DNA of 64,000 bases from Lichina pygmaea (Eukaryota > Ascomycota > Lichinomycetes > Lichinales > Lichinaceae). A program made the translations under genes and the position numbers. The stretch is taken from NCBI GenBank assembly GCA_963422465.1, contig OY730169.1, positions 1,178,001 through 1,242,000 on the forward strand, in the 5' to 3' direction. Of the stretch, positions 31,409 through 63,926 are shown piece after piece. The number at the start of each line of letters is the position of its first letter. Positions within the stretch are counted from its first letter, which is position 1. The notes below the pieces were generated by a model. The model was not told where the DNA came from and did not search any database. It saw nothing but the letters and a program-made list of their open reading frames with translations.

Positions 31409-31902
31409 TGTTAAAGGCCGGGCCGGGTTCACACAGAAACCGGTACGGTCTGTTGCTTCGCAGGGCGGATTCTAGACAGGGACTCGGTAGAGGAATAGAC
31501 AGGTGGGGTAACTCTCCTGTGCTATTGTCTCAGTACGATGTGTGCATTGGTGTTCAGCCTGGAGAGCTAATCCCTCCGGGCCCTTGGGGTGGTCTTTATA
31601 CAGATGCCCTAGGGGGGGGGTCTCCTCCGAGGGGTATCATCCTTTTGCGTGGACGAGCTCCTTGCTTAGCTCCTGCTCGTCCACTGGACGAGCTCCTCGC
31701 TTAGCTCCTGCTCGTCCACTGGACGAGCTCCTCGCTTAGCTCCTGCTCGTCCACTGGACGAGCTCCTCGCTTAGCTCCTGCTTGTCCACTGGACGAGCTC
31801 CTCGCTTAGCTCTTGCTCGTCCACCGGATCGGTCAGATGTTGTTCCGCATGACTAACACTCCTCCCTCGCTTACCTGGGCTGTTCCGGCCTAGGCCTTAA
31901 CA
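31409..31902 (-). repeat. gypsy C 3' LTR (494 bp, five 35-bp units)
   Basis: Begins TGTTAAAGG and ends GGCCTTAACA. It contains five tandem 35-bp units (31,651-31,825), each with inverted arms GGACGAGC and GCTCGTCC. The 105-bp length difference from the 5' LTR equals exactly three units. Confidence 0.95.
31651..31825. repeat. 35-bp hairpin-forming tandem array (5 units)
   Basis: Each unit runs from GGACGAGC to GCTCGTCC plus a 3-bp linker, so single-stranded DNA or RNA of each unit can fold on itself. The sister LTR has two units (37,716-37,785). Confidence 0.95.
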
Positions 31903-31963: not shown

Positions 31964-32536
31964 ATGAACCAAGGCCAGACAACTCGAACTTGTCGTCGCA
32001 GTTTTCTTTCTTGTCGTATTGGCAAAATAGGCAAGGAATCAAAAATCGCATGTGGTGCTTGTCGTCATGACTACGCCAAGTGTGTCGTGAGCTCTGCATC
32101 ATCTTTTTGTTGTCGGTGTGTTGAGAAGGGTTGTCGCTGCGACCTTCATCTCTCAGAATCAGAATGGAAGAAGATGGAACTTGAGCGTGAGCAGCTCAAG
32201 GCTCAGCTGCGGGAGACTGATGACCAATTGTCAAAGTTACTTCCCCAGCAGATCTGCCTCCGCTGGCAGCTGGGTTGTCTCTCACAGAAGAAGGCTGATG
32301 CCATCTGTTGTGAACTGTCAGCCATCAAGGATCAAGAGTCCCTTGATGCTCAGGAACAAGAGGCTCTCCGCGTTATCTGTGAACAGGAGGCCAGTCAGGC
32401 TGCTGCTCCGCTGTCCTTTGAGGATGTCTTCTCTTCAGAGACTTTGGCTTCTCTCAAGCTGTTGTCCCTGTCAGACCTGGTCGCTGCGGGTTTGCTTGGT
32501 GGTAATCCACCAGCTTCTGGTTCATCGCAGAGCTGA
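31964..32536 (+). CDS. antisense Zn2Cys6-type coiled-coil protein of gypsy C
   Basis: A 190-codon open frame on the strand opposite to gag-pol, 62 bp inside the 3' LTR. Residues about 28-60 have the cysteine spacing CX2CX6CX8CX2CX6C (CGACRHDYAKC, then CCRCVEKGCRC), which is the GAL4-type zinc binuclear cluster signature. A long Glu/Gln/Leu-rich helical region follows (SEWKKMELEREQLKAQL onwards), likely a coiled coil, with an acidic-hydrophobic C-terminus. It ends tail-to-tail with the pol chromodomain-like end. A DNA-binding dimer is inferred. Host Zn2Cys6 regulators are usually much longer. It is open throughout although the element's gag-pol is heavily broken. Confidence 0.65.
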   Translation: MNQGQTTRTCRRSFLSCRIGKIGKESKIACGACRHDYAKCVVSSASSFCCRCVEKGCRCDLHLSESEWKKMELEREQLKAQLRETDDQLSKLLPQQICLRWQLGCLSQKKADAICCELSAIKDQESLDAQEQEALRVICEQEASQAAAPLSFEDVFSSETLASLKLLSLSDLVAAGLLGGNPPASGSSQS

Positions 32537-35500
32537 AGTTTTCAGTTGGTTCCCACAAATTCTCCTCTTCGTCAAATCCTAACCACTTCACCAGGTACTC
32601 AGTTTTCTGTCTGTTTCTTCAACTATCCAGGATTCTTTTGACATTGTACTCTTCTTTGTCATCCTCGAAGTTCTATTCTGTCTTGATTTCTGCGTTGCTG
32701 GGTGCTGGTTTGAGCAGCGAGATGTGGAATACTCAGTGTATCCTTGCTTTTTGTGGTAGTCTCAGTTGATAGTTGATCTTCCCAGTGTGCTTCTTGATTT
32801 CGAATAGTCTGATTTGTACGTGGTCCAGCTTTTTGCTCGGTCACTTTGAGCGCAGGTTTTTTGTTGATAGGTAGACCTTATCCCCTCTTTCCAGGGTTGG
32901 TCTCTTCAACCTTTTGTCGTGTAATCAGTGGGTGGTGGTGTTCTGGGCACAGTCAATCGTTGTTTTCATCATCTCGTGCATAGCAGCGAGTTTGCTAACA
33001 TCAACAACATTGCCTCCTGCTGTTGCCTGCCATCAGGGGTTTCTTCCGTAGTTTGCAAAAAACAGTGTTATCCCTGTCACGCTGTGTTGCTGGTTGTTGT
33101 ACACAAACTGGGCTATTGGTAGCAGTTCCACCCAGTTATCCTGCTGGTGGTTGACGTAGTGTCGTAGATACTGCTCTATTGTCTGGTTTGTCTGTTCAGT
33201 TTGTCTGTCAGTTTGTGGGTGGTAGGCTGTTGACATCCTTGTATCAATGCCAAGTTGCCTTGTCCACGTGTTCCAGAATTTTGAGGTGAAGAGTTTGTCT
33301 TGATCTGAGATGATTGTCTTTGGTAGCTCTCAGTGGCTTACCAGCTCTTTGAGTAGAACACTTGCAAGTTTGTTTGCGGTTCCTGACTCTTTCCACAGGA
33401 CCAGGTGGGTGTATTTGGTGAGCTTGTCAACAACCACCAAAATGCTATCGTATACCACCTTTGTTGCTGGGTCTGTTGACTTTGGCAACTTGACCACAAA
33501 ATCCATCATGATAGTTTCCCATAGTGCCTCGGGTAGGTCTATTTGCTGTGCCTGCCCATAGGGCTTATGTCTTGATGGCTTGTTCTTCGCGCACTGTTCG
33601 CAGTTGCAGATAAACTCTGTCACCTTGCACTTTATTCTGTTGAAGTGGTAGTTCCTTTAGATTTTCTCCAAGATTTTATCTTGCCCGGGGTGTCTGTGCA
33701 AAGGCCTGTCATGGTGCCTCTGGATCACCTCCTCTTGTGCTTTTTCTGGCACAATTTCCTTTTTGTTTGCCACCTTGTGGCCAAGGGTAAGGAGTGGACT
33801 CTTTGTTTCAGTTGTTGCCAGTTGGGGTTGGGCATAGACCAGAGTTTGTCCTTTTGTCGCTAGGATTGGGTGTTCCTCTGTTGTTTTCTTGTCTATCAGG
33901 TCTGGTCACCTGCTGAGTGCGTCCACTCGAGCATTTTCAGTGCCCTTCCAGTAGAGGATTTAGAAGTTGTATGATGCCAACAACTCTGCCCATCAAACTT
34001 GTTGTCAGTTTAGCTTCTTTGTTGTTGTGAAGTAAGCTAAGTTCTTGTGGTCTGAGTACACATCTACTGTGTATTTTACCCCCTCCAAGTAAGGCCTCCA
34101 TTCTTGGAATGCGTTGATGATTGCTAGCAACTCTTTGTTGTGAACATCGTACCTCAGTTCTGGGCCAGAGAACTTTCTTGATCAGTACGCAACAGGGTGT
34201 AAGCAGTTGTCGGCGTCTGGTTGACACAAGCAGGATCCCAATGCTTGGTCTGAGGCATCAGTTTCCAGAATGATTCTTTTCTCAGGATCAAATGATGCCA
34301 AAATAGGTGTGGAGATGAATTTATTCTTCAACTCCTGGAAGGCTGCTTGTTGGCTCTCCCCCCACCTGAAAGATTTGTTCTTTCTGGTTAACTCTGTCAA
34401 GACTGCTGCTGTTCTTGAGTAGTCCTTGATGAATTGTCGGTAGAAGTTTGCAAATCCTAGGAAGGATTGTACTTCTTTGAGGTTTTTGGGTGTTGGCCAG
34501 TCTCGTACTGCTGCTGTCTTTGTGTTGTCTATTCAGATTCCTTCTGTTGTCAGGATTGACCCCAAATATTCCACTTCTTTCGTGTGGAAAACACTTTTAT
34601 CAAGGTGTAACCTCATGCCTGCTTTCTGGAGCGCATGTAGGATTGTTTTGACATGCTGTTTATACTCCTCCAAGGTTCCATTGGTGTATACCAAGACATC
34701 GTTGATATAAGCAGTGACAAATATGTCCAGGTATTATTGGAGGACAGTGTTAATAAGTGATTGGAATGTTGCCAGTGCATTTGTAAGGCTGAATAGCATC
34801 ATGGTATACTTGTAGTGCCTGTACCTTGTACGAAAGGCTGTCTTCCATTCTTCACCATCTTTTATCCTAACCAGGTTGAAAGTGCCTTGAATGTTGAACT
34901 TGGTAAACTATTTGACTCCTTGGATCTGGTCTTGGATTTCTGATATCAATAGCAGTGGGTAGTGGTTTTTCACTGTAATCACATTTAGCCACTGATAATC
35001 AACACACAGTTGAAGTTTGCTGTCTTTCTTTGGCACAAACAATATTGGGTATCCAGCTGGTGATATTGAAGGTCTTATGAACCCTTTCGCTAGGTTCTTG
35101 TCCAGGTAGTCTCTCAGGGCCTCAAGCTCTTTTGCTGACAGAGTGTAGATAGAGCTGTGTGTGGGTTTTTTTCTGTCTTCCAGCAGAATCTTGTAGTCCC
35201 ACTCCTGATGTTCTGGTAGTGTCGTGATCGCTGTTTCTTCAAACATCTCCTGGTATTCTTTATACTCACTTGGCAACTGCGGTGCCTGAGTCTCACTCAC
35301 AGTGTCTTGCGTAGTGCAAAGTTGTTGTGTTTGGGGTTTCATCCAGGCCACACAGGCCTGCCCGTGCCGGTGGTATTTCTTCCAGTGTGTCAGTGAGATT
35401 TCTTTAATCGTCACCCCTGGTTCTGACATAACCAGTGTTCTGTCCGGAAAGACTAGTTACCTTCTTCTCCAGTCAATCCTTGGGTTTTGTTTTTCCAACC

Positions 35501-43891: not shown

Positions 43892-44013
43892 CCCCCCCTC
43901 GAGCTGCACCTCCACTCGAGCTGCACCTCCACTTTGCAATTTAGCTCTCCAAGGTGAGTATGTAGGCCCACCGTCCTCTGCTACTTCCGTTAGCTGACAT
44001 CTCGTCTACTGTG

Positions 44014-44700: not shown

Positions 44701-44721
44701 TGGCCCACTGGTCGGGCTCTC

Positions 44722-45312
44722 CTACCCCGTCACGAGGACTACCTCGCCATTTGCCTTCAAGTGGTACGTGCCCTTTTCTCTTCTGGCCGTTACCCTTCTT
44801 CTGCCATTCTTTATTATGGCCATCTCCCCATTCTTTGTTGTTGTCTCGAACCCCTTCTTGTCCAGATCTGAAACTGACATCAAGTTGGCAGTCAATCCAG
44901 GTACGTACAGCACTCCTGTGACTGTCGCAACACCGCTCTGCTGGTTGAACCAGGTCCGTACAGTTCCTACACCTTTGATCGCAAGCCTGTCTCCGTTGGC
45001 TACTGACAGGTGGCCTCCCATGGGTTTCAACTCAACGAATAGTCCGAGATCCCAGCTCATGTGTCGGGTCGCACCGCTGTCAACGATCCAATCGCTCGTC
45101 CGCGGTTCCCCGATCGCCAGATCTGGTACAAGGCAAGTGAGGTAGGTCTTCTCTCCTTCCTCATCCTCCCGGTACATTGCCACTCTTGCCTTCTCCCCTC
45201 TCTTCCTGGGTTTCACTGGGGGTTTGTCTTCCAATGGGGTTCTGTCTGCTGACCATGTCGCGAAACATTCAGACTTCCTGTGCCCTGTCTGGTCACACCG
45301 GAAGCACTTCAT
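44722..45312 (-). pseudogene. copia zinc knuckle and protease
   Basis: CFRCDQTGHRKSEC is a CX2CX4HX4C knuckle. WIVDSGATRHMSWD is the copia aspartic protease signature, followed by the conserved GVLYVPGLTANLMSVSDLDK block. Fossil. Confidence 0.85.
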
Positions 45313-45327
45313 GTCCTTTCCGTCTTG

Positions 45328-46017
45328 TCAGCCCTTGCTCCGTCCTTTGCCCTTGTCATCTTTACGGACAGTCAGTGCCTGCTCCGCTTCTCCCTTGACG
45401 ATCCGTGCCTCTTCTCCTGCTAACTTCCGCAGGACCTTGTCCAGTTCGTCGATCTGATCTGTTGTTATGAGGATCTTCTTCATGGTGTCGTATTCTGGCG
45501 TCAACAACTCTAGGAGCAGGATCACTAATGTCTTTTCCGGCAGTTTCAGTGTCGAGTCGTAGCTCTCTATTTCAGCATTGAGCACACGGATCCTCGACCC
45601 TCTCTCTTCGATCGTTCAGCCGAGGTCCTTCGAAAACAGCTGTACCATCACATTGTGCAGCTTCTCGTTGTTCGGCCGTTCGTGGATCCCTTTCAGGGTC
45701 TTCCAGATGTGGTAGGGGTGCTCGATCTGTCTGACGTGTTTTTGCTGCTCTTCACTAATTGACAACAGTATGATGTCTGCTGCCTTTCCTTCTTCTGCCT
45801 TGCTATCCTGCCACTCCTTTGTGGCCTCGATCCGTTGACCTTTGGATCCTGTTGCTGACGTTTGGGCAGGCTTCATCTCTGACTCTTCTGGCTCTACAAG
45901 GACAGTGTGCCAGACTCTTGCGGCCAATAGCCGCATCCTGATAACTTGTGCCCAGTCTTCATAGTTCTCTGGGCCCCGGAGCAGGACCTTCCTGGCCTGT
46001 TCCTTCTTGTCTTCCAT
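45328..46017 (-). pseudogene. copia gag
   Basis: Starts MEDKKEQARKVLLRGPENYE 154 bp from the 5' LTR. It has the WKTLKGIHERPNNEKLHNVM pattern of UBN2-like copia gag proteins and a following helical piece (LLELLTPEYDTMKKI). Fossil. Confidence 0.8.
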
Positions 46018-46170
46018 CCTATTGGCTTGCCTTCTGCTAACGTCGTGGCTAGCCCTTCCTTACGGCCTTTTCCTCTAGGCTCTTCTTTGCAGCCTTTTCC
46101 TCTAGGCTCTTCTTCTCCTCTTCTTCTTCGACTTCTTCACAGTCGATTCAACCTTGTCAGCGGGATTCCC

Positions 46171-46182
46171 GGGCTCATAACC
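46171..46182 (-). other. copia primer-binding site (initiator tRNA anticodon loop)
   Basis: The plus strand reads GGGCTCATAACC directly next to the LTR at 46,183. It matches the initiator-Met tRNA anticodon stem-loop and therefore pairs as GGTTATGAGCCC in the element RNA. Confidence 0.7.
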
Positions 46183-46374
46183 TGTTGGGATAATCGGTGT
46201 CAGTGACACTTCAGAATGACAAGGCACTTAGAAGACAATAGGATCTTGTATTCAATAGGATGTACTAAGACATTCGTCTACAATGAAAAATAAGAAAACC
46301 CTTCTTCCCAATCTAGGGTTAGCGCCCTTCTGTAAGTCACGTGGTATGACGTTGCAGATCGCCCAACTTCAACA
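46183..46374 (-). repeat. copia 5' LTR (192 bp)
   Basis: Same ends as the 3' LTR (TGTTGGGATA...CTTCAACA), followed by the CCCCT target duplication. Confidence 0.95.
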
Positions 46375-46379
46375 CCCCT

Positions 46380-46497
46380 GGTCGGTCTCACCGGTCACGT
46401 GACTGCTTCCCGTGTTATGCTGCCTGGTACTTCCGTCCAGTATCCTGTCTGCTGCTTCCTGTGAGTATAAAGACTGTGTTCCTCCTGGGTCGTAACA
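46380..46497 (-). repeat. gypsy A 3' LTR, inner part
   Basis: Resumes after the copia duplication (CCCCT, 46,375-46,379) and ends at TCGTAACA. It carries the CACGTG core and, on the plus strand, TATAAA at 46,466-46,471 pointing at the antisense ORF region. Confidence 0.9.
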
Positions 46498-46549
46498 CTA
46501 TCCTCCTCTCCATCTTTCATTGTCTTGATGAAACTTGGTCATATCTCCA

Positions 46550-46944
46550 AAGTCACGTGCGACTGTTAGCTAAACTCAGCTTGCTGCTCAAATCCGCGAT
46601 CAGGATTTTGTTTCGCGTACGCCCTGTGATTTTTGTGTTTTCTGTGGTCGTCTGTGCTTCCAGATGCCAGGAGAAGACGATAAGTTGAAATGTGCTGCGT
46701 GCACTCAGCGTGGGAGGTCTTGTGTCTCTGTGTCCTGGGAATCTCTGAACATATCCCAGGACAACCTTCGTGAGGATGTGGCCGCTGAAGAGGTAACGCG
46801 CGACGCACTCTTCGAACAACTTGCTGCGGTGCAAGTTCATCTGTCTCAGAAGCGAAAGGTGTTGGAAGACGCCAAGGTCTGTGCGAGGTAGAAGCTTCAG
46901 TGTCTGGTGGAAGAGATAGAGTCAGATGGCGAGGATTTGACTTG
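46550..46944 (+). pseudogene. gypsy A antisense zinc-cluster ORF remnant
   Basis: Plus-strand counterpart of the gypsy B antisense ORF, at the same place between the LTR and the end of pol. The region is similar throughout; an open part at 46,664-46,891 contains the second CX2CX6C half of the zinc cluster (CAACTQRGRSC) and the coiled-coil-like stretch. Broken. Confidence 0.6.
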
Positions 46945-46949
46945 ATCAG

Positions 46950-49900: not shown

Positions 49901-50108
49901 CTGTGTTGTTAGTATAGTTCCTAAACATAAGTACTCCTGTCCTCCAGTTAACAACTGGGTTGTGCTTCTTTAGCCAAGACATCCCCAAATAGATATCCTG
50001 AGTGGCCAACTCAACAATATCAAGGTGGATCCTTTCAGTATGGTGTCCAGTAACTATTTCTATTGGCTGTGTCTTGTGGTAGACTAGCTCTGTCTGTCTA
50101 TTTGCCAT
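46950..50108 (-). pseudogene. gypsy A pol remains (PR, RT, RNase H, IN, chromodomain)
   Basis: Protease at 50,160-49,779, RT at 49,661-49,258, RNase H at about 48,810-48,400, integrase at 48,104-47,493 (DFITKLPKSKD, TDRDKLFTS, STAYHPQTDGQTEQAN), and integrase C-terminal part plus chromodomain at 47,462-46,950 ([20 protein letters not shown]). Fossil, with several breaks. The chromodomain marks it as a chromovirus, a group known to target heterochromatin. Confidence 0.85.
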
Positions 50109-50320
50109 CGCAAGCTGATAGAGCTGCCACTTGCGTCTTCTTCCAGTGCTGAGGGTGTCATGAAATTATCTTGAAATGTAGTTTCCACTGGCTCCAGAAT
50201 CAACAAGCACATATGTCTGTACTGGCATGTTGGCGTGTAGTGACACAGGTAATCGCAGGTGCTTTGTGTTGCTAGGGGTCATGTTGTTGAGCTCCTGATG
50301 TCACCCCTTGACAAGGGAGT

Positions 50321-50565
50321 TCAATCTTTTCCTGATTGAAGTGTCTTTCCACTGACTGGGCAATAGGTCCAGCTATTCCCATCAGTTCTGAGAAATCTAT
50401 TCATGAATTTGTCTTGCTGATGCTTGTCACATCCAGGCTTAAGGCAGTACTGCCAATTGTTGACGTAGCAGTTGTGGTTGTTGCCTTGCTGTAGGAACAT
50501 GAGGTGTTCGTGCCAATCATGTGTGTGCCCGGGGAATGCGGTGTGTTGGTGTTTGTCCCAGAGAT
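50321..50565 (-). pseudogene. gypsy A gag, part downstream of LINE copy 2
   Basis: WDKHQHTAFPGHTHDWHEHL and CLKPGCDKHQQDKFMNRF continue the His/Cys-rich gag C-terminal part that ends at 55,898 on the other side of LINE copy 2. The same His/Cys style occurs in both pieces. Fossil. Confidence 0.6.
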
Positions 50566-51077
50566 AGATCTCACACCACAACTCTTCCCAGAACCACATT
50601 CTTCAAGGACTATCATTTTTGACAAACACCACAATTTGTTATATGTTCTGGAAAACAGCTGAGTTCCTCTCTGAAACCACCCAAACCTTAAGGTGAAAAC
50701 CCATCACCTTTGAGAATCACACCTGTTTGTCAAAAGTTGTGATCTTGAATCCACAATCTTCTTCTTCAACAACCAGCAATCTACCCAGAACCAGAGAGAG
50801 AGAGTCTTAGGATAAGAGGAATAGTTAGAGTCTGACTGACTCTGGAGCTAGCAGAGTCTTTGGCTCAAGGAAAGTCTAGATAGAGGGTCTGGTCCCTAGT
50901 CTAGGTTAATACTTCTAGCTTTGCCCAGAGCTTAGTTGGAAAAAGCTGCCCAGGAAAGTCTAGTCTTGGGGATTGGTCCCAGGACTAGATTATTACTACT
51001 GGGAAACCAGGTGACTCTTCTTTCTGGCAGTACTCTGCAGACAGGAAACACCCAACCAGTGCCAAACAATCTCTAAC

Positions 51078-51998
51078 ATGGCTCCCAAGAAGAAAAAACC
51101 CACCTTTTCAGAAAGTAACACCAGAGCTACACCAGCTATACTCTCCCAACCAGCTCCCAGTCTGGCTAGCACCCAGTCCAGCTCTCCTACCCCCCAACCA
51201 GCTCCCCAGAGTGACTACAAACTAGTAGACTCCTGGATCAAAACTCAACCAGTCCCAGAATCCATTCTGAAAAGCTGGGAAAATATCAAAAAGAACTCCT
51301 TCCCTACAGAAGCCCAGTCTAGCTCTACTAGCCTCACCAACAGAATCTTCCAGGAGCTGGAGAATATCAACAAGTGGCTGGACAAACAAGAAGCCAAGCC
51401 ATCATATGCCCAGGCTGTCCAAAAATCTATTCTAGCACAAATCCCTCTACCTGCAAGAATTCTCAAAGAAGTTCTTGTACATCCTGGTATCCAGCCACCT
51501 GACATGGCTAATAGAACTCACATCCAGCTTTTCCAGACTCTTCAAGACAGACTACCCAGCCCCTACAACAAGCAGGTCAGAGCAGTAAGGAAACTTCCTT
51601 CAGGGGATATCCTTATTAACACAGAAAGCCAAGAGACTAAAGTCTTCCTAGAGAAAAACCCTGCCTGGGTATCAGCTATCTTCACAAAGGAAGCAACCAT
51701 CCAGCCCAAGAGATTTCCAGTTCTGATCCATGGAGTCAGAACAGAAGATATCCAACCTGAAGACCTGGAGAAAACCTGCCAGATAATCCAGAACAGCAAC
51801 CCATCTCTGAGCAAGCAAATCACCATCCTGAGAGCCTACTGGTCTAAGAAGGCTATAGCTCAAAAGAAGCCAGTTACCTCTCTCCACCTGGATCTGGCTA
51901 CCCCTGAACAAGCTAATCTTTTGATTGAGAGTGGGCTAGTGCTGGGGCACAGGATGCATGAAGCAGAACCTTTTCTGGCAGACACAGTTATTGCATAA
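51078..51998 (+). CDS. LINE copy 2 ORF1, first part
   Basis: 306 residues, MAPKKKKPTFSESNTRATP onwards, apparently identical to copy 1. It is a Pro/Ser-rich N-terminus followed by an RNA-binding-type helical region. It ends at TAA; the same frame continues to 52,469 with the knuckle motifs. Confidence 0.85.
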   Translation: MAPKKKKPTFSESNTRATPAILSQPAPSLASTQSSSPTPQPAPQSDYKLVDSWIKTQPVPESILKSWENIKKNSFPTEAQSSSTSLTNRIFQELENINKWLDKQEAKPSYAQAVQKSILAQIPLPARILKEVLVHPGIQPPDMANRTHIQLFQTLQDRLPSPYNKQVRAVRKLPSGDILINTESQETKVFLEKNPAWVSAIFTKEATIQPKRFPVLIHGVRTEDIQPEDLEKTCQIIQNSNPSLSKQITILRAYWSKKAIAQKKPVTSLHLDLATPEQANLLIESGLVLGHRMHEAEPFLADTVIA

Positions 51999-52469
51999 TG
52001 TTTCAAGTGCTTTGGCTATGGGCACCAAGCACGCTTCTGCAAGAACAAAGCTGTGTGTGGTGCCTGTGGAGGCCAGCATGAAAGGAGAGCCTGCCAAGTT
52101 CCTGAACAGCTTCTCAAGCCAAAATACTGCAACTGCAGAGGAGCTCACCCAGCCTGGGCCAGTGTCTGTCCAGTACGCCAGGAAGCAGCCAAGAAGGCAA
52201 GAGAAGCATGGAACACACGCCCAGGAAAATATGAGATCCCAACAGCTACCTCTGTTCCAGCTCTACAACCCCCCCCAGTTATGTCTTTCCCTCTCTCTCA
52301 GTCTCTACCAGGGGGGAAAAAACGTAAAACAGCTGAGCCAAGCAGAAGCTCAGAGAAACTCAGAGGTGCACTCCCAGAAGTACAAATTCTTTCTTCAAGA
52401 TCAGCCAACTCTGGAGGAAAGCTACCAGCTAACTCCTTCAAGATCTTTGATGCTGAGATGTCTGCATGA
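51999..52469 (+). CDS. LINE copy 2 ORF1, zinc-knuckle part
   Basis: In frame with the first part after TAA: CFKCFGYGHQARFC, CGACGGQHERRAC and CNCRGAHPAWASVC are three CCHC-type knuckles, the usual end of a LINE ORF1 protein. It ends TGA at 52,467-52,469, overlapping the ORF2 ATG (ATGA). The in-frame ATG at 52,053 would lose the first knuckle. Confidence 0.75.
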   Translation, partial: CFKCFGYGHQARFCKNKAVCGACGGQHERRACQVPEQLLKPKYCNCRGAHPAWASVCPVRQEAAKKAREAWNTRPGKYEIPTATSVPALQPPPVMSFPLSQSLPGGKKRKTAEPSRSSEKLRGALPEVQILSSRSANSGGKLPANSFKIFDAEMSA

Positions 52470-53656
52470 AAGACACAAAGCTGACACTTCTCCAGTATAA
52501 TGTACAAAAAAGCCAATCAGTCCAAGAGCTACTGCTAGCAACCTCAGCTCTCCAAGAGGTGGACATTATTGCACTTCAAGAGCCCTGGAAAAACCCTCAC
52601 CTAGAAACAAGCACTTCAACTGTTTTCTCTTCCTTTCTTCCTCTCTACTGTTCAGAGATTGGCAGAACACTTTTTCTTATTAATAAAAATCTGAAACTCT
52701 CTTCTCTTCATCCTACCTTCTGGAATAAAGACTTTGTTTCTCTTGAAATCTACTTGGAAAACTCTTCTACTTCTCTTTGGGTACATAATCTCTACTTCAC
52801 CCCATCAAGTCAAGAAAACTACACAGAGGCATCAGAAGCTCTTCTCTGTTTACTCCAAAATGCTTTACAAGAACAAGGACAACATATTCTTCTCACAGAC
52901 TCAAATCTTCACCACCCAGACTGGTCAAAGAAAAGAAGACTGTACTCTGAGACTGCAAACAAGTTTCAAGACCTAATGAAAGATTTAAATCTGGATTTAG
53001 CTATTGCACCTTTCACCCCTACCAGAGCAAGATCTCTTTCTGAAAAACCATGTTCTTCTATTGATCTGTCTTTTATTTCTTCTTCTCTTTCTAACTCTCT
53101 GATTTTCTCTAAAGTGGCTCTTCAGTTCTTTCATGGGTCTGACCACAGACCTGTACTAACCTGCCTGGACCTGGATCCTCCAAGGAAAATCTGGAAACCA
53201 GAAAGAAACTGGAGAACACTGGACTCAAACCTTGCAAGAGTAGAGTGTGAGAAGCTACACCTGCCCTTCCACTTCCAAGACAAATATGAAGTGGATGAGT
53301 ACTTGGAGTATCTTGACAACTTTCTCCAAGAAATAGCAAGCAAATCCACACAGCTCCAGAAGCAATCTGGCCACTCAGTTCCCTGGTGGAATCAAGAGAT
53401 CCAAAACAAAGTTAAAGAGGAAAGAAGAGTAAGAAGAAAAGTGCAAAAAAGCAAGCAAGTCAAGAGGAACTTGAGCAAGCAACTAAGCTCAAGAAAAAAG
53501 CAGTCAGAGATAGAAAACAGAACACTTTCAGACACCAAATCCATGAGCTGGCCAGCTCTTCAAAGTTCTGGAAGCTTGCAAAGTGGGGAAAGTCCAAAGC
53601 CAACAAGACTCCTGATCTTCCTCTGGTTCCTGACCTGGAAACACAAGAAGGAATAG
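52466..53656 (+). CDS. LINE copy 2 ORF2, endonuclease part
   Basis: EEP endonuclease beginning MKDTKLTLLQYNVQKS, with LQEPW, LLTDSNLHHPDWS and GSDHRPVLTCLDLD. After the A6 run (53,445-53,450) the conserved continuation (RHQIHELASSSKFWKLAKWG) is in the +2 frame, which is the frame of the RT part. Confidence 0.85.
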   Translation: MKDTKLTLLQYNVQKSQSVQELLLATSALQEVDIIALQEPWKNPHLETSTSTVFSSFLPLYCSEIGRTLFLINKNLKLSSLHPTFWNKDFVSLEIYLENSSTSLWVHNLYFTPSSQENYTEASEALLCLLQNALQEQGQHILLTDSNLHHPDWSKKRRLYSETANKFQDLMKDLNLDLAIAPFTPTRARSLSEKPCSSIDLSFISSSLSNSLIFSKVALQFFHGSDHRPVLTCLDLDPPRKIWKPERNWRTLDSNLARVECEKLHLPFHFQDKYEVDEYLEYLDNFLQEIASKSTQLQKQSGHSVPWWNQEIQNKVKEERRVRRKVQKSKQVKRNLSKQLSSRKKQSEIENRTLSDTKSMSWPALQSSGSLQSGESPKPTRLLIFLWFLTWKHKKE

Positions 53657-53790
53657 CCAAAACCTTTGAGGAAAAGACTAAAGCCTTCTCACAATAGTTC
53701 TTTCCAAAAGCTCTAGTTCCAGAACCAGGCTCAGAAAGCTCCCAGACTATCTCTGAGATACAGCTCTCCCAGGAGGTAACATGTGAAGAA

Positions 53791-55707
53791 GTGGAGCAAA
53801 TTCTGGCCAAGAAGAAACCTTTCACAGCAGGAGGGAGAGATAAGCTGCCAAATAGATTTCTGAGAGCTCTGGGGCCTAGGTTCTGCCAAGCTCTAGCTAT
53901 TCTGACTTCAACATGCTGGAAACTGGAGTACTTCCCTGAAAGATTTAAGAGTGCAAAAACAGTCTGCTTGAGGAAACCTGGCAAGGGAACCTACAATCAA
54001 GCTAAAGCCTGGCGCCCTATAGCTCTGCTAAACACAACAGGCAAGCTGATGGAAGCTATTACTGCAGCCAGACTAAGCAAGATAGCAGAAGAAGCTGGAC
54101 TATTGCCAGATATCCAGATGGGCTTTAGGAAAGGAAGATCCACAGAAGCAGTACTTTTCCTTCTAACCTCCCAAGTGGAAAAAGTCTGGAAGGAAGGCAT
54201 GGTTGCATCCCTACTCTCACTGGATATCTCAGGAGCCTATGACAGAGTTCTCCCCAAGATACTACAGCAAATTCTGAAAAGAAAAGGAATACCTGCCTGG
54301 CTAGCTTCCTGGATCTACTCCTTCTGTGATAAGCGCTCTACCACTCTTGTCTTTGATGATTCTGAGTCTTATTCTATTCCTATTCATTGTGGAGTTTCTC
54401 AAGGTTCTCTATTATCCCCTATTCTTTTTCTATTCTACATTTCTGAATTGCATGAGACTGTGCATACTCCCTCTTCTGGTGTATCTGCCCTCGGGTTTGC
54501 AGATGATACAAATCTGCTTGCTTTTGGTCACTCCTTGAAAAGTAACCTTCTGAAGTTAAAGAACACACACCACAAATGTCTATCCTGGGCTGCAAGACAT
54601 GGAATGGTCTTCTCACCTGAGAAATATGAAATACTTCATTTTTCCAGAAGAAGATCAGACAATCTTCAGCTCAAGCTCAGACAGGGGAATGTGATTCTCA
54701 AACCAAAAGAAGAAGTGCGAGTACTTGGAGTGTACCTAGATGCAAAGCTCCACTGGCACAAACACCAGAGGATTATTCTTCAAAAAGCACAGAAAGCACT
54801 CTCTTCTCTTTCTAGAACTTCCTATTCTACTTGGGGCTTTCCAGTTCACACATCATGTCTGGTGTACACTGCTATACTGAGATCTCTACTGAGCTATGCA
54901 GTGGGGATCTGGTTTAACCCTCTAAGAAAATCCTCCAATATCTCTTCTCTTGTTTCATTTCAAAACAGATGCCTAAGACTTATTGGGGGTGCTTTCAAAG
55001 CCACTCCTTCTTTTCTATTAGAGAGTGAGCTTTTTCTTCTACCTCTAGACCTCTACTTTAAATTTCGCACTGCCTGTTTTCTTTCTTCTATTCAAAACTC
55101 CCCTCTCAAATACTTTCTTGACAGTATCTTTTCCACTATTTCCAGCTATGCCTCTCTCTTGAAGAAACCTTTAAAGGAATCCCCAACTATCTCTCCTAAG
55201 TGGAAATTCACTTGGTTAAGTCAAATAACTACTAACCAGGCTAGTTCAAAGAAAGAACTACAAAAGCTCTTTACTAAAGAGTGGGAAGACCAATGGGAAG
55301 AGAAGAAAAGAAGAAGCTATCCAGGCTGGCAGACTTTCTGTCAAAAGCCACACAAAAACAATCTGAAGCTCTACAAAGAGTTACAGAAAGCTGAGGCAAG
55401 TCTGCTACTGCAAATCAGGACTGGAAGAATTGGTCTGGCAAGTTTTCTTTTCAGAGCTGGAGTTCCTGACTTCCCTACCCCACTATGTGTGTGTGGCCAA
55501 GCAGAAGAAACTGCAAAACATATCACCTCTTCATGCTCTCTTTATTCAAGACAAAGACAACAAGTCTCTTTTAATCCCCAAGACTTCACCACTATTATTT
55601 CAAACCCAGAGCTACTACAGAAGTTCTTGTACTGGTTTATGTTTTTGAAAAGACTAAACCAGTTTAATCTAGCTTTCAAACTCCACTATTCCCAATCTAA
55701 TACCTAG
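53791..55707 (+). CDS. LINE copy 2 ORF2, reverse transcriptase part
   Basis: 638 residues: RT fingers and palm with WRPIALLNTTGKL, GFRKGRSTEAV, LDISGAYDRV, HCGVSQGSLLS and FADDTNLLA, thumb, then the C-terminal CVCGQAEETAKH knuckle. Gypsy C cut copy 1 in this region; here it is whole. The conserved frame extends upstream to about 53,445, with a TAG at 53,695-53,697. Confidence 0.9.
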   Translation: MEQILAKKKPFTAGGRDKLPNRFLRALGPRFCQALAILTSTCWKLEYFPERFKSAKTVCLRKPGKGTYNQAKAWRPIALLNTTGKLMEAITAARLSKIAEEAGLLPDIQMGFRKGRSTEAVLFLLTSQVEKVWKEGMVASLLSLDISGAYDRVLPKILQQILKRKGIPAWLASWIYSFCDKRSTTLVFDDSESYSIPIHCGVSQGSLLSPILFLFYISELHETVHTPSSGVSALGFADDTNLLAFGHSLKSNLLKLKNTHHKCLSWAARHGMVFSPEKYEILHFSRRRSDNLQLKLRQGNVILKPKEEVRVLGVYLDAKLHWHKHQRIILQKAQKALSSLSRTSYSTWGFPVHTSCLVYTAILRSLLSYAVGIWFNPLRKSSNISSLVSFQNRCLRLIGGAFKATPSFLLESELFLLPLDLYFKFRTACFLSSIQNSPLKYFLDSIFSTISSYASLLKKPLKESPTISPKWKFTWLSQITTNQASSKKELQKLFTKEWEDQWEEKKRRSYPGWQTFCQKPHKNNLKLYKELQKAEASLLLQIRTGRIGLASFLFRAGVPDFPTPLCVCGQAEETAKHITSSCSLYSRQRQQVSFNPQDFTTIISNPELLQKFLYWFMFLKRLNQFNLAFKLHYSQSNT

Positions 55708-55897
55708 ATTCTCTTCTCTTACCAGAAACTTCAAGATTTTTTTTGTTACATTCCCTAGTCACACCCTGCCTTCAGTTTTTATCTCTTCAAAGGTTTTCTG
55801 AAGGAGTTCACTATTAGCTAGAAGATCTGCATGGCTGTAAAGCTACTACCAGTGTAAGAATCAAATAAAAAAATAAAAAAATAAAAAGATCTCACAC

Positions 55898-57141
55898 GTA
55901 TCCTTCTTGCAATCAACCCAATGTTTGTGGCAGGTGGTGTGGTAGGGTGAATGCCCTCTGTATCTTCGTAGCTGTTCGTGGTAGGTGCAGTAATGCTTTG
56001 TGCAAAACCTCCACTGTAGTTCACCATGCTGTAGGTTTCGTGGGTCTATACTGTAAGCATAGCTTCCTTGCAGTATTTCTTCTTTGATAGACATGGGTTT
56101 ATCTCGGTCCCCATCAGAGGTGGTTAAGGACTCCTGTCTCTTGTCCTGACCTGTCTGTTCTGGTAGGTTCTTGCCTCCTGATGTTGCCAGTTGGTGCGCT
56201 GCTTCCAATGTCTGGTTGTATTTGTCCTATTGTTCAAGGGATAGCTGCACCTCTCCTGGTGGGTCCTCTGGCTCAATGACATTCCAGTCTCTGTCAAGTG
56301 TATTAAGTTGCTGTCAGTGCACCTTGTTCTTTGAACAACAGTCTCTTGCCATGTGGCCTAGCTTGCCACAGGCATAGCACTTCAGTGCTTTCCCCTTCTT
56401 GTTGTTCCTTCCTTTTGTGAACCTTCCCTTGTGGTGGACTGCACCCAGTTCCATAGGTGCATAGCCATATGGGTCATGTGGTGGTGCCTTGTTAGGTGAC
56501 TTGTAGTGGTTGCTCACATGCCATGCGGGGTGGCTGTATTCTCTGTCATGGTGTTTCTCCATCACTCGCTTGAATAGCTTGTTGTCAATGTTGATTGCTT
56601 GTGCGATGAACTTGTCCAGTGTGTTAACCACTTGTCTGTCAAAGGTGATTTTATCCTTCATGTTTTCTTTGAGTCCATGTCAGTACATGACCATCAGGGT
56701 GTTGTTGTCCCAGTTGGTCAGTACTGAGTATTGCTTGAACTGTGTGGTGTACTCAGTGGCAGAGTGTTGTTGTTTGATGTGCTGGATCATTTGTATAGCC
56801 ACTTTGTCTTTGTTAGATAGTCCAAGGATTTTTCTGACTTTATTCCTGAATCATGTCCATTTTGTCATCTATTCTGTTGTGCCGTCACAGTCTCTGTCTT
56901 CTGAGAGGTATTTGTTGACGTAGGGCTTGATCCATCGATGAGCATTACCTCTCATGTAAGTGGTTGTAAAGAGGGGCCACTTCTCCTTAGGCAGCTTCAT
57001 CTCTGGTTGGAATTGAAAGTAGACTTGGAGTTGCATGAGCCAGTTGTCAACCTTGTTTCTTTCACTGTAGAACAGGTCTGGCTTGGTGACACTAATCTTT
57101 CCATCTGGGAATCTGGGGTTGGTTACTCCTGAGGTACTCAT
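55898..57141 (-). pseudogene. gypsy A gag, 5' part
   Basis: Begins MSTSGVTNPRFPDGKISVTK 18 bp from the 5' LTR, with a capsid-like part (WLMQLQVYFQFQPEM) and a knuckle CYACGKLGHMARDC near 56,340-56,380. A His/Cys-rich region (about 56,000-55,898) is then interrupted by LINE copy 2. Fossil. Confidence 0.75.
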
Positions 57142-57159
57142 CCTTGAGGGTCTTCAAAG

Positions 57160-57675
57160 TGTTGCAGTCTGTACTGTACCATCCTATCCGAGTATAGAAT
57201 AAGGGCGAGATACAGAAGGCAGGTTGGTTCTTGCAGGAGAGGAGTGTCAAGGAGTGTGAAGGGGTTTGGTGGAACATGGTGGTGATGACACCTGATCAGT
57301 GGCTTCGTACAAGATTGTATTGAAGTAGATCTAGTTGTCTGGATCACAACATGAGTTGAAGACGATTATTCCATAAGGAACTATCGCCAGACTATATAGT
57401 GCTCAGTCTGTGAGCTCAGTGAGCTCTGCTCACTTTGCTCACTCAGTGAGCTCGGTGAGCTCTGCTCACTTTGCTCCCTGTTCATGCATGCTGCAGCGAG
57501 CTGGGTGAGCTTTGCTCACTCTGCTCACACATATGCGTGCTGCGGCGAGCAACCCCTGGTCAGTCTCGCCAGTCACGTGACTGCTTCCCATGTTATGCTG
57601 CCTGGTACTTCCGTCCAGTATCCTGTCTGCTGCTTCCTGTGAGTATAAAGACTGTGTTCCTCCTGGGTCGTAACA
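57160..57675 (-). repeat. gypsy A 5' LTR (516 bp)
   Basis: TGTTGCAG...TCGTAACA. It is longer than the 3' LTR partly through a duplicated GTGAGCTC...GCTCAC unit (about 57,410-57,480). On the plus strand it has TATAAA at 57,644-57,649, so its antisense promoter points out of the element. Confidence 0.92.
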
Positions 57676-59076: not shown

Positions 59077-59762
59077 ACAACTGTGACAAGTATGACCAAC
59101 TTCTGCAAAATCCTTCCATTGTTGCTATTGAATAACACACTACCTCTATCACCTACATACAAACAAGACAATGTCTTGGGGTGACTGAGCACTTCACTGG
59201 TGTTTCCAGCACCACCTAGCTCTGCAGTGCTCAACAGCTGTGGGAGAGCTTTGATCAGCTCTTGAGAGCCTACTATTGGCAAAGGCAGACTGTAGTTGCT
59301 TTGTGTCTCCACTTCCACATGAATGCAATAGACAGTAGCACAGTAGGTATTTTACCATAGAGTTCTTGTTGACATCACTCTTTGTCCTCTTGCTTCAGAA
59401 GCTTTGACTGATTTGGCCTGTCTTGTCAGACCAGAGTGTTTCCTGTTAAGACTCTCTTGATTCTCTGTGTTGTGATCTAGCAGGTCTAATATACCAGTAC
59501 ATTACAGGAAAAAATCTCTTCTTCTCTCACGTGACCTCGCCTCTAGCAGTGACTGAGGACCCCCCTCCAGATCAACAGTATCATACCTACCAGTACTGTA
59601 CTGTATGTAGAGCCAAGGAAGCTGGAGAGCTCAACACTGCACAGCTGTCAAGCTATCAAGCTGTAGAGTGGAAGAGCTACAGATCTGTAGAGCTGAAGGC
59701 ACTGTCAAACTGTACAGTACCAGTACTGTACTGTAGTTGATCACATGACACTTGTTATCACC
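59077..59762. other. upstream flank of the decayed unit plus an LTR-like scrap
   Basis: 59,077-59,529 is still free of CpG and may be the upstream region of the decayed unit. 59,450-59,740 shows diverged similarity to the LTR of the left copia element (CTCTTCTTCTCTCACGTGAC, CTCTAGCAG, TGAGGAC), so it may be an old solo-LTR fragment. It abuts gypsy B at 59,763. Confidence 0.35.
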
Positions 59763-60097
59763 TGTTGCGGTCCGTACTGTACCGTCCTATCCGAGTATAG
59801 GATTAGGGTGAGAGGTGGAAGGCGGGTTGGTTCTCGCAGGAGAGAAGTGTCAAGGAGTGCGAAGAGGTTTGGTGGAACGTGGTGGTGGTGACACCTGATC
59901 AACAGCTTCGTACAAAAGGATTGTATTGAAGTAGATCTAGTTGTCTGGATCACAACATGAGTTGAAGACGATCGTTCCATAGGGGAACTATCGCCAGACT
60001 ATATAGTGCCCAGTTTGTGAGCAGAGTGAGCTCTGCTCACTTTGCTCACTTGTTCGTGCATATGCATGCTGCGGCGAGCACCCCCTGGTTTGTCTCG

Positions 60098-60113
60098 CCG
60101 GTCACGTGACCGG
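60098..60113. promoter_or_regulatory. 16-bp palindrome with inverted CCG/CGG triplets in the LTR
   Basis: CCGGTCACGTGACCGG reads the same on both strands: CCG-N10-CGG around a CACGTG core. It is shaped like a Zn2Cys6 dimer site and lies about 60 bp upstream of the antisense TATA box. Gypsy A LTRs keep the GTCACGTGAC core. Binding is an inference. Confidence 0.5.
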
Positions 60114-60172
60114 TTCCCGTGTCACACTGTCTGGTACTTCTGTCCAGTATCCTGTCTGCTGCTTTCTGTGAG

Positions 60173-60180
60173 TATATAAA
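60173..60180 (+). promoter_or_regulatory. antisense TATA box in the gypsy B LTR
   Basis: TATATAAA on the plus strand, 70 bp upstream of the ATG of the antisense ORF. The matching TATAAA is present in both gypsy A LTRs (46,466-46,471 and 57,644-57,649). Confidence 0.55.
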
Positions 60181-60249
60181 GACTGTGTTCCTCCTGGGTC
60201 GTAACACTATCCTCCTCTCCATCTTTCATCATCTTGATGAAATCTGGTC

Positions 60250-60654
60250 ATGCCTCCAAAGTCATGTGCGACTGTTAGCCGAACTCAGCTGGCTGCTCAA
60301 ATCTGCGATCAGAGTTTTGTTTCGCGTACGCCCTGCGACTTTTGTGTTCTCCGTGGTCGTCCGTGCTTCCAGATGCCGGGAGAAGACAATAAGTTGAAAT
60401 GTGCTGCGTGCACTCAGCATGGAAGGTCTTGTGTCTCTGTATCCTGGGAATCTTTGAACATGTCCTGGGACAACCTCCGTGAGGATGTTGCCGCTGACAA
60501 GGCAACACGTGATGCACTCTTTGAACAACTTGCCACAGTGCAGGCTTGTCTGTCTCAGAAGCGAAAGGTGTTAGAGGGCGCCAAGGTCTGTGCGAGGCAG
60601 AAGCTTCAGTGCTTGGTGAAAGAGATGGAGTCAGATGGCAAGGATTTGACTTGA
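60250..60654 (+). CDS. antisense Zn2Cys6-type coiled-coil protein of gypsy B
   Basis: 134 codons on the strand opposite to pol, starting MPPKSCATVSRTQLAAQICD. Residues about 29-58 carry CX2CX6CX11CX2CX6C (CDFCVLRGRPC, then CAACTQHGRSC), within the GAL4 zinc binuclear cluster rule (CX2CX6CX5-12CX2CX6-8C). A Leu/Glu/Lys-rich heptad-like stretch follows (NLREDVAADKATRDALFEQL, then LSQKRKVLEGAKVC). The last 49 bp overlap the end of pol tail-to-tail. LTR sequence upstream supplies a TATA box. No other domain is seen. It could be a DNA-binding dimer or simply a nucleic-acid chaperone; the family is not one I recognise. Confidence 0.7.
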   Translation: MPPKSCATVSRTQLAAQICDQSFVSRTPCDFCVLRGRPCFQMPGEDNKLKCAACTQHGRSCVSVSWESLNMSWDNLREDVAADKATRDALFEQLATVQACLSQKRKVLEGAKVCARQKLQCLVKEMESDGKDLT

Positions 60655-61664
60655 TCAGTCATTGACACGTCCCTCCTGCAGGCCGAGCTGTTCAGTCCTG
60701 CTCCTGCCGAAACTGTCGCAGAAGAAGCCGGCAGTTCGCGAGGTTCTTTTCTAGCCAGGATCTGTTCAACCTCGAACTCTTGTTCTTCTTCGGGTTGGTA
60801 ATGGAATGTTTCCTGCAAGGGTGTGCTCTGGTCGGCTGGTTCAATCATTGATATATGAAAGTTTGGATGGACTCTGGCATCCCTTGGTAGTCGTATCTTG
60901 ACGTTGACTGGTCCTGTTTTTTCTTCGACTGAAAATAGTCCAACCTTGATGTTGTCAAGTTTCTTTGTCTTTGGTTTCTTTGTTTTCCAATTTCTTGTAA
61001 GGAGGTAGACTTTATCCCCCTTCTTTAGCTGAGGTGCCATTTTCAATTTCTTGTCCATTTGACGTTGCATTCTTTCTGAGGTCTCTTGAAGGTAGTGCCT
61101 CATCATCGTGTGTGTTTGTCGTAGGAGCTTGTCATTTTGGAGTGCTTTCTCCGTGTTTGGTGAAGCTCTGCTTGGCATCCTGATGTTCGCATGTTGTCCA
61201 AAATTGGCAAAAAATGGTGATTCCTTTGTTGAGTCTGATCTGTGCTGGTTGATTGCCAGCTGTGCCACCGGTAATAACTGTACCCAATTGCTGTGGGTCT
61301 GGTTGATGTAATGCTGTAAGTAAGTCTCCAGGACTTGGTTTGCTTGCTCTGTCTGGCTGTCAGTTCGTGGGTGATAGGCTGTAGACATTTTGGGTTTTGT
61401 TCCCATGGCTGCACTGATTGTCTTCCAGTAGTTGGATGTGAAGAGTTTGTCTCTGTCTGTAATAATCGTGATCAGAACTCCGTGGTCTCTGACCAATCTG
61501 TCCAGTAAAAGGTGTCCCAACTGTTCTGCTGTGTAGGTCTCCTTGAATAGTACTGCTATTAGATATTTTGTGAATCTGTCCACTATCACCATAATCAAGT
61601 CGTAGGTGATTCCTGTGACTGGGTCTTTGGACTTGGGTAGCTTCGTGATGAAGTCCATTGACAC
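60606..61664 (-). pseudogene. gypsy B integrase and chromodomain region
   Basis: Long open stretch with the integrase DDE residues in DFITKLPKSKD, TDRDKLFTS and TDSQTEQANQVLE, then a GPY-like integrase C-terminal part (GPVNVKIRLPRDARVHPNFH) and the start of a chromodomain ([10 protein letters not shown]). It belongs to the fossil gypsy B. Confidence 0.85.
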
Positions 61665-61781: not shown

Positions 61782-63926
61782 TCAGAGGTTAATGACATTG
61801 TTCCCTGCCTGTTGGATAAGGTCTGTGGTCTTGGAGATTCCTGGGTGACCATGTGCTGGATTATCGTGGTAGTTCCTTATTAGTTCTTCAGTGTCTTCTG
61901 CCGTGAGCTTGTTGATCTGTGGTTGAGGCACCAGGTTTCCTTGCTGGTCCTGCTGTAAGATTGTTCCTTGGTGTTCATCATCTTCCATGTGGTCTTTTCA
62001 TCAGCTTAGTGCGTCTGCTCTCCTGTTGTCTTGTCCAGGGGTGTACAAGATCTTGAACTTGTGTTGCCCTAGGAGTTCAGCCCATCTGACTTGCTGTCTG
62101 TTCAGCTTCTTGGTTGTTGTGAATGTTGTCAGATTCTTGTGGTCTGTGAGAACAGTGAGTTCAGAACTGCTTTCTGCGTACACTCTCCAGTGTTCAAGTG
62201 CGTTGACAACTGCCAGTAGCTCTTTATTGTGGATATCATAGTTTTGTTCCGCTTGTGTTATTTTTTGTGAGTAGTAGGCAACTGGGTGCCACTTGCCGTC
62301 TGCCTGTTGGCATAGACATGCTCCCACTGCCTGATCTGAAGCGTCCGTCTCGATTTGTGTTGGTTGGCCTGTCTTGAAGTTGAGGAGAACTGGTTCCTTG
62401 GCGCAAGTGTCCTTGAGCTGTTAGAATACTTTTTGTTGTCTCTCTGTCCACCGGTACTCCACATCCTTCTTCGTGAGTTCTGTTAGTGGTGTTGCCATCT
62501 GTGAGTAGTTCTTAATGAACTGTCGGTTGAAGTTGGCACATCCTAGGAAGGCTTGTACTTCCTTAACTAACATCGGTGTTGGCTATTGCTGAATCACTTT
62601 GATTTTCTCAGAGTCAATCTTGATCCCTTCAATCCCTATAACATATCCAAGGAATTCAACTTCTGGTTTGTTGAACTTGCATTTCTTTGGGTTGAGCTTG
62701 AGCCCTGCCTGTTGTAGGTATCGTAGAACATCCTTCACATGTTTGGTATGTTCCTGTTGCGTGTTCGAGTAGACAAGAATGTTGTCCAGGTAGGCGATAG
62801 CTGTTTGGTCCAGGTGTGCTCTGATGACATTGTTGATCAATGCTTGACATGTTGCTGGTGTGTTTGTGAGTCTGAATGGCATAACCAGATACTTGTAGTG
62901 TCTGTATCAGGTTCTGAAGGCTGTCTTCCATTCTTCTCCTTCTTTCATGTGTATCAGGTTGTATGCTCCTTTCAAGTCCAGCTTGGTAAAGATTGTAGCT
63001 TGGCTGATCCTGTCTTGCAATTTGTTCGCATTTGGTAACAGATATCAGTTCTTGATGGTAATGTTGTTGAGTTTCCTGTAATCCACACAAAGTTGAAGAC
63101 TTCCATCTTTCTTTGATGCAAATAGTATCGGGTATCCTGCTGGCGATTGAGATTCTTGAATGAAACCCTTTTTCAGGTTTTTCTCCAGGTACTCGCAAAG
63201 TACTTGGAGCTCTTTCTCTGATAACTGGTAAATTGGTCCAAATCCTGGCTCCATCCCTGGTTGCAACTTGATCTCATGATCCCAAGGTTGGTGCTTAGGC
63301 AACACTGCTGTTGTTGTCTCTTCCTGAAAGAGGTTATCATACCCAGGTCAGTACTCTTCAGGGATCTCCAGAGGGTTAACAACTTCCTCTCTCTTCATCT
63401 CTGACTGTTTGGCCACCTGGTTCCGGGGTGTGCCTGTCAAGGCAGACCTCTTCTCTTGAGAGTCGTCCTTTCTGTCGGTGAGGTTCCACTGAGGACTCCT
63501 TCCCTCATCTGTCTACGCCTTCTGCGGCTGGTAACAGGTCCGAGCTGTGTTGTTAGTGCAGTTCCTAAATGTGAGTACTCCTGTCTTCCAGTTAACAACT
63601 GGGTTGTGCTTCTTTAGCCAAGGCATCCCCAAATAGATATCCTGAGTGGCCAACTCAACAATATCAAGGTGGATCCTTTCAGCATGGTGTCCGGTAACCA
63701 TTTCCATTGGCTGTGTCTCATGGCAGACTAGCTCTGTCTGTCCATTTGCCATCGCGAGCTGATAGGGCTGCTGCTTGCGTCTCCTTCCAGTGCTGAGGGT
63801 ATTGTAAAGTTGTCTTGAGATGTAGTTTCCACTGGCTCCAGAGTCAACAAGTGCGTATGTCTGTACTGGCGTGTTGGCGTGTAGTGACACAGGCAATCGC
63901 AGGTGCTTTGTGTTGCTAGGGGTCAT
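61782..63926 (-). pseudogene. gypsy B protease, RT and RNase H remains
   Basis: Protease with YALVDSGASGNYISRQLYN (63,926-63,513). RT parts at 63,305-63,045 ([20 protein letters not shown]) and 62,882-62,583 (TNTPATCQALINNVIRAHLD). RNase H at 62,327-62,001 (WHPVAYYSQKIT, LTVLTDHKNL, DNRRADALS). The integrase zinc-binding part is at 61,988-61,782. Fossil with a handful of breaks. Confidence 0.85.

Follow-up and report, generated by a model that had tools for sequence, protein, structure and literature searches.

Antisense extra genes in long terminal repeat (LTR) retrotransposons are described, in the part of one review that deals with them (PMC7264820), as having no known function. In fungi the case in print is brtn, the antisense gene of the Boty-like gypsy elements of Botrytis cinerea (Zhao et al. 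2011 Virology 417:248), known here by description only, through passages in later articles that cite it (PMC8365987, PMC7264820, PMC4227169, PMC5987419). Those passages present it as an additional gene on the strand opposite to gag-pol, in an element that has a CHROMO domain (PMC4227169), and report a BRTN-like transcript in Monilinia (PMC5987419). Here we describe a comparable gene in the ascomycete Lichina pygmaea, in a stretch of 64,000 nucleotides (assembly GCA_963422465.1, contig OY730169.1, positions 1,178,001 to 1,242,000; hereafter the window, from whose first letter all coordinates are counted). A gypsy element in the window, gypsy B, carries an open reading frame (ORF) with a six-cysteine, Zn2Cys6-like cluster on the strand opposite to pol, and in all 60 related loci sampled below the ORF is antisense to the end of pol; the layout is that of brtn, the gene lying between pol and the 3' LTR in a gypsy element that has a chromodomain.

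The plant elements Grande, RIRE2, Retand and PvRetro13 also have antisense ORFs between pol and the 3' LTR (PMC7264820), the likeness being one of position; the word zinc does not occur in that review. By analogy, the closest logic to that of the system proposed below would be that of VANC, a protein of the Arabidopsis VANDAL elements. VANDAL elements are a kind of DNA transposon. VANC is likewise encoded by the element, and its targets are often arranged as tandem repeats, which vary from one related element to another (PMC5735166); in the elements considered here non-coding tandem repeats also differ between relatives (arrays of 50, 42, 50 and 35 bp units), as candidate targets only. The VANC proteins differ in having other domains, and for them binding and loss of methylation were shown (PMC5735166).

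Fungal gypsy elements with an additional antisense gene are thus not new, and the preliminary description of this DNA, which knew of no described system in which a retroelement encodes such a regulator in antisense, is not supported on that point, since brtn of Boty had already been published (passages in PMC8365987, PMC7264820 and PMC4227169). What is additional here are the selection tests and the exchange cassette. The Zn2Cys6 cluster, codon-level selection, U3 arrays (U3 being the unique 3' region of the LTR) and cassette exchange do not appear in the citing passages on brtn, some of which the original paper may report. Among the papers listed by a literature search for such a gene in gypsy elements, none deals with one by title or by the start of the abstract, and the words antisense and zinc do not occur in PMC3248453.

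The antisense ORF and its relatives

The ORF of gypsy B (60250..60654, plus strand) has its cysteines at residues 29, 32, 39, 51, 54 and 61, an exact fit to CX2CX6CX11CX2CX6C (60334..60432, plus strand; a pattern match in the window, the fold comparison having been done on a relative) and within the Zn2Cys6 spacing CX2CX6CX5-12CX2CX6-8C. Among the 486 stop-free frames of at least 60 amino acids in the whole window, the wider pattern CX2CX6CX5-14CX2CX6C occurs three times (at 60334, 46625 and 32051), invariably in a frame antisense to a gypsy element, and the window ORF with its cluster is beyond chance. The preliminary description was right in seeing a six-cysteine ORF with exact spacing (residues 29-61) opposite pol and beside the 3' LTR, and its coiled-coil-like tail is borne out by prediction: a long helix follows the cluster at residues 66-128 of the 166-residue relative P0003 and 62-117 of P0143, modelled with a predicted local distance difference test (pLDDT) mostly above 90, and when transferred from P0003 it would lie at 60445..60633 (plus strand) in the window.

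The gene is highly repeated in the 32.5 Mb genome (8 contigs). The window ORF belongs to a subfamily, S1, with at least 150 copies (150 scored of 505 candidates, all 150 matching at 80-100% identity), and a second subfamily, S2, whose identity to the window ORF is 60-66%, also has at least 150 (all 150 scored places were filled, from 501 candidates in a search of the same genome); both belong to family F1. For the comparisons that follow we took the 30 loci best by similarity from each subfamily, 60 in all, a choice that biases counts of intact copies upward. In all 60 the ORF lies antisense to the integrase and chromodomain, the chromodomain match ending at locus position 1913-1928. The preliminary description had left room for the cysteines being lost in other copies, but all six are present in 28 of 30 S1 and 28 of 30 S2 copies. 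The ATG is present in 27 of 30 and 30 of 30, respectively, and 16 of the 60 are stop-free over codons 1-166. Within a subfamily most variants are transitions in CpG and CpA contexts, the pattern of copies decayed by repeat-induced point mutation (RIP) or methylation in fungi. At two S2 loci, L036 and L054, the frame stays open for 28 codons further upstream of position 1501, into the LTR; two database proteins of a related group, P0030 and P0034, start at that upstream site, and an alternative N-terminus is possible.

Compared with these loci, the copy in the window has suffered damage: its ORF is cut short, and 65 bp are missing from the chromodomain region of its pol. A stop stands at codon 167 in all 30 S2 loci and in 29 of 30 S1 loci, the window copy being the sole exception, and the in-frame continuation at 60655..60750 (plus strand), opposite pol, is homologous to the last ORF codons of other copies. 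The 134 codons of the preliminary description thus hold for the window copy, while 166 amino acids are encoded elsewhere. Similarly, the 49-bp tail-to-tail overlap it gave with the pol ORF at 60606-61658 is what we measure in the window, but since the window ORF is truncated and its pol is short of 65 bp this figure is peculiar to that copy; elsewhere the pol stop lies at locus position 1910-1912 (54 of the 55 loci listed) and that of the ORF at 1999-2001, so that the two overlap by 92 bp.

That the ORF is a real protein gene under selection, antisense to pol, is what comparison of the two subfamilies indicates. Over codons 1-133, which lie outside pol, the median nonsynonymous (dN) and synonymous (dS) distances between S1 and S2 are 0.228 and 2.07, the latter near saturation, with a dN/dS of 0.108; these are Nei-Gojobori (NG86) medians that omit saturated pairs, keeping 812 of 900 for the ORF, 658 for the cluster and 337 for the tail. 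The other two forward frames of the same codons give 1.2 and 1.6, and the three reverse frames 1.0, 1.9 and, in the case of the shadow frame, 0.21; the integrase gives 0.183 (754 pairs; L001, L039, L041, L044 and L059 are left out of integrase comparisons for indels). Of 86 fixed differences between S1 and S2 in codons 1-133, 51 fall at third positions, 20 at first and 15 at second. Seven more lie in the pol overlap, two of them at an ORF third position and four in the phase of the pol third position. A codon model restricted to stop-free copies puts omega at 0.425 in the ORF (29 of 60 copies) and at 0.387 in the integrase (24 of 55), both probably diluted by decay after insertion. Within subfamilies, a cysteine codon has on average 0.33 non-modal residues, whereas the mean for other codons is 2.0 (S1) and 1.7 (S2). 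The preliminary description had allowed that change in the ORF might be neutral or mirror pol; the constraint proves to lie in the ORF's own phase and outside the pol overlap.

A cluster of Zn2Cys6-like, six-cysteine type is supported by its relatives. Nineteen of these, hand-chosen at 26-45% identity to the first, share 13 invariant columns, including the six cysteines, with loops of varying length, and CX2CX6CX5-14CX2CX6C is kept in 57 of the 63 relatives that span the region, with loops of 8-14. The commonest Pfam match in the 19 is Zn_clus (PF00172), found in 11 at E values up to 1 (best 0.0011); the same profile has no match in the window ORF or in the ORF of the second family described below, and among 12 close members none is listed. 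Over the cluster, the models of two relatives match Zn2Cys6 domains, weakly by score, the best fold matches there being the GAL4-type group of PUT3, PPR1, Leu3, Pho7 and HAP1. The likeness to these proteins would consist in the six-cysteine spacing, a predicted helix after each CXXC and then the long helix; unlike them, the product of the window ORF has no Pfam match, is very small, and is encoded by a mobile element, antisense in a retroelement. A PDB sequence search at E values up to 10 returned tektins and nitric oxide synthase, which we take as chance matches. No second family near P0143 was found in this genome, the best match being 44% identical, and scans of viral and genome contigs confirmed the genomic context of no relative outside this genome. 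When four extended relatives were compared with the in-frame sequence downstream of four loci, opposite the chromodomain, the match of P0127 was reached by 0 of 500 shuffles at two loci and by 51 and 40 of 500 at the other two, and the remaining extended relatives were weaker than P0127.

U3, the exchange cassette and a second family

The 3' LTR of gypsy B (59753..60206, minus strand) is 454 bp long, TGTTA...TAACA. Its U3 contains a TATA box oriented for antisense transcription (60173..60180, plus strand). The distance from this box to the ATG is 77-80 bp, and the box, still within the LTR, is kept in 58 of 60 F1 copies amid diverged U3. The sense TATA box of the LTR, CTATATAG, is at 59999..60006 (minus strand), and a palindrome, CCGGTCACGTGACCGG, occupies 60098..60113; the CACGTG core of the latter is kept in 58 of 60 copies, in both subfamilies. 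Tandem Repeats Finder (TRF) detects U3 arrays in F1 with units of 50 bp in S1 (L019), 42 bp in S2 (L036, L063-L065), and 50 bp in both S3 (L061) and S4 (L062). The window's own 3' LTR has one repeat unit and no more; the 5' LTR of gypsy B, outside the window, differs from it at 15 of 427 aligned bases and by a further 100 bp, the length of two U3 repeat units. GTGAGC/GCTCRC is confined to S1 U3s and TCRAGAC/GTCTYGA to S2 U3s (30 copies each).

In an alignment of six loci each of S1 and S2, identity between the subfamilies is 92-98% in R-U5 (the repeated and unique 5' regions of the LTR) and 34-52% over the larger part of U3; for the ORF it is 56-75% and for the integrase 89-97%. In the one pair aligned base by base, the sharp step in identity between U3 and R lies about 30 bp downstream of the sense TATA. 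Synonymous difference between S1 and S2 is 0.60-0.80 in the ORF and 0.27-0.47 over the final 360 bp of pol; for the integrase it is about that seen within subfamilies. On trees of 55 copies the subfamily label changes once for the ORF, once for the chromodomain, three times for the near integrase, 12 times for the far integrase and 13 times for upstream pol, the minimum of 500 shuffles for these last stretches being 13. On a tree of R-U5 from 58 copies (L029 and L055 left out, here and for U3) the label changes 17 times (shuffle mean 19.7, minimum 14) with identity of 0.950 within and 0.947 between subfamilies; the U3 directly beside it gives one label change, with 0.915 within and 0.359 between. 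In all 60 copies the type of U3 matches the type of ORF. The ORF and U3 are thus one exchange cassette, R-U5 and the examined upstream pol being mixed between subfamilies.

S1 and S2 copies are likewise seen intermixed in pol upstream of locus position 2640 and in R-U5 (L002-L060), and this intermixing in upstream pol and R-U5 points to frequent recombination during replication. In reverse transcription, the first strand transfer may go to a co-packaged RNA and a template switch may follow later, both established parts of the mechanism. The cassette pattern would fit a first strand transfer of that kind combined with a switch in pol, an application that we infer. By eye, one relative, P0019, looks chimeric, with an S2-like start and an S1-like end, and P0023 mixes S1 and S2; from their look, exchange breaks may fall inside the ORF too.

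The layout is repeated in a second gypsy family, F2, so that an antisense cluster gene lies between pol and the 3' LTR in two families. The F2 element (31409-37862) is bounded at both ends by the 5-bp direct repeat CCACT. Its ORF (31964..32536, plus strand; 190 amino acids, CX2CX6CX8CX2CX6C) overlaps pol tail-to-tail by 83 bp, the 3' end of pol (32454..33656, minus strand, with its stop at 32454) comprising an integrase and a chromodomain recognised by eye from its motif; the 3' LTR lies at 31409..31902 (minus strand). The F2 and F1 integrases are 54% identical over 91 amino acids. At least 150 copies of the F2 ORF were found in the genome (150 scored of 273 candidates, all matching at 80-100%), and among 16 of them, the 10 best and 6 chosen for a longer open frame, 12 keep the cysteine pattern. 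Aligned with the F2 ORF, the family profile A4 spans the helix, the cluster and the start of the coil; because the hhalign E value is 3.9e-4 yet the probability only 36%, homology of the F2 and F1 ORFs is likely but not certain. Within F2 the ratio of nonsynonymous to synonymous polymorphism (pN/pS) comes to 0.42 in the frame of the ORF, compared with 0.55 and 1.06 in the two remaining forward frames, which suggests selection on this ORF as well. A TATA at the equivalent place in U3 was not found in F2.

The F2 U3 has a 35-bp array in 14 of 16 copies, repeated 5.1 times in the window (31650..31828), and the perfect 9-bp inverted arms of its unit are reached by 4 of 1000 shuffles. In F1, one S1 unit has a 6-mer four times (1 of 2000 shuffles) and another S1 unit has one three times (61 of 2000). 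Shuffle tests gave no excess of 6-mer repeats in S2, S3 or S4 units and none of inverted arms in S1, S2, S3 or S4. Half-site arrays as a general feature of U3 were rejected, being clear only in F2, partial in S1 and absent in S2, S3 and S4. GAL4-type CGG sites as the U3 target were set aside; the means for CGG/CCG are 2.5/4.1 per S1 U3 and 1.4/1.9 per S2 U3.

The rest of gypsy B and the neighbouring repeats complete the picture. A purine-rich tract on the element strand adjoins the 3' LTR (60207..60226, minus strand), and the 3' end of pol (60606..61658, minus strand) encodes the integrase core (E 1.9e-6), an SH3-like domain (E 1.4e-11) and the chromodomain region broken by the 65-bp loss, with an aspartyl protease part further off (63513..63926, minus strand). 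Gypsy A carries a degenerate copy of the same ORF (46541..46945, plus strand, ends set by register with the window ORF; cluster at 46625-46723) and a Pfam Chromo match of E 9.7e-17. The element (43335-57675) resembles a nest, with a copia-like element in its 3' LTR (43700-46378) and a long interspersed nuclear element (LINE) in its body, these kinds being judged by eye; the copia-like element sits between 196-bp direct repeats that are 99% identical. F2 lies between two parts of a LINE copy. The LINE stretches 37863-42569 and 50578-55284 are inverted with 100% complementarity over 4707 bp, unusually fresh amid many decayed repeats.

A possible regulator of its own element

What might such a protein do? 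The preliminary description spoke of a zinc-cluster regulator encoded in antisense; a real, selected gene of zinc-cluster type is present in very many copies, while its regulatory function is something we infer. It is tempting to suppose that in F1 the antisense gene is transcribed from a promoter in U3, pointing inward from the 3' LTR, and that its protein would dimerise through the long helix, enter the nucleus and bind DNA, most likely at the tandem-repeat array in the element's own U3. The bound protein could then control or de-silence the main transcript of the element, as an activator or an anti-silencing factor, and would by analogy resemble retroviral Tat in role and plant VANC in logic. 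A first strand transfer at the U3/R border and one switch inside pol would let U3 and the gene be inherited as one cassette; because the two are adjacent they would be passed on together, and the regulator would therefore stay with its matching target. We regard regulation through the element's own U3 by the antisense-encoded protein as about evenly poised between being right and being wrong. The fuller proposal is more tentative and, in our judgement, somewhat doubtful: a self-recognition module in at least two fungal gypsy families, in which an LTR-driven antisense zinc-cluster gene and a U3 array as its private target co-diverge and are traded as a cassette, each line activating or de-silencing its own kind.

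Several other accounts have to be weighed, with the caveat that our estimates for them and for regulation are rough and that the readings overlap. The strongest, possible and a shade more credible than the full module, is that U3 and the ORF are linked by adjacency alone, the U3 repeats being an ordinary enhancer or minisatellite for host factors and the protein acting elsewhere. Adjacency alone could explain the agreement of U3 and ORF type in all 60 copies. Mixing increases along pol the farther a stretch is from the ORF, the U3/R border provides a ready-made point for strand transfer, and the CACGTG core is kept in both subfamilies, all as simple linkage would have it; yet the arrays differ between the F1 subfamilies seen, the cluster differs too, and in F2 a cluster ORF goes with a palindromic array.

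A role for the protein in the particle or in integration, as a nucleic-acid chaperone, in nuclear import or in the choice of integration site, seems to us unlikely. The protein is small and cysteine-rich with a long predicted helix, its ORF shares the pol tail with the chromodomain, and the exchange cassette takes in the chromodomain. However, the gene has its own TATA in U3, the matches are Zn2Cys6-like rather than of the CCHC-knuckle kind, and the product of an antisense transcript would not naturally enter the particle. Less probable still is that the antisense transcript itself is the functional product, through double-stranded RNA (dsRNA) or small RNA control, and that the protein matters little: the TATA oriented for antisense is promoter-like, and a review considers dsRNA and antisense transcripts in such elements (PMC7264820), but codon-level constraint outside the pol overlap and the conserved cysteines point to selection on the protein. 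Finally, a chance ORF or a shadow of pol constraint, though the last 92 bp do overlap pol and four of seven fixed differences there follow the pol third-position phase, is rejected for codons 1-133 by the changes at third positions in the ORF's own phase, the dN/dS of 0.11 and the pattern count of 3 in 486, and is very improbable.

Here, then, an antisense gene of a retroelement comes with a cluster of DNA-binding type, clear selection at the protein level, a promoter-like site and a candidate array travelling along with it, and its function is thereby reducible to a question of binding. There is also a caution for annotation, as hundreds of such copies could pass for host transcription-factor genes. 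If regulation through U3 is true, fungal retroelements would be added to the small number of mobile elements known to carry a gene for a sequence-specific regulator of their own.
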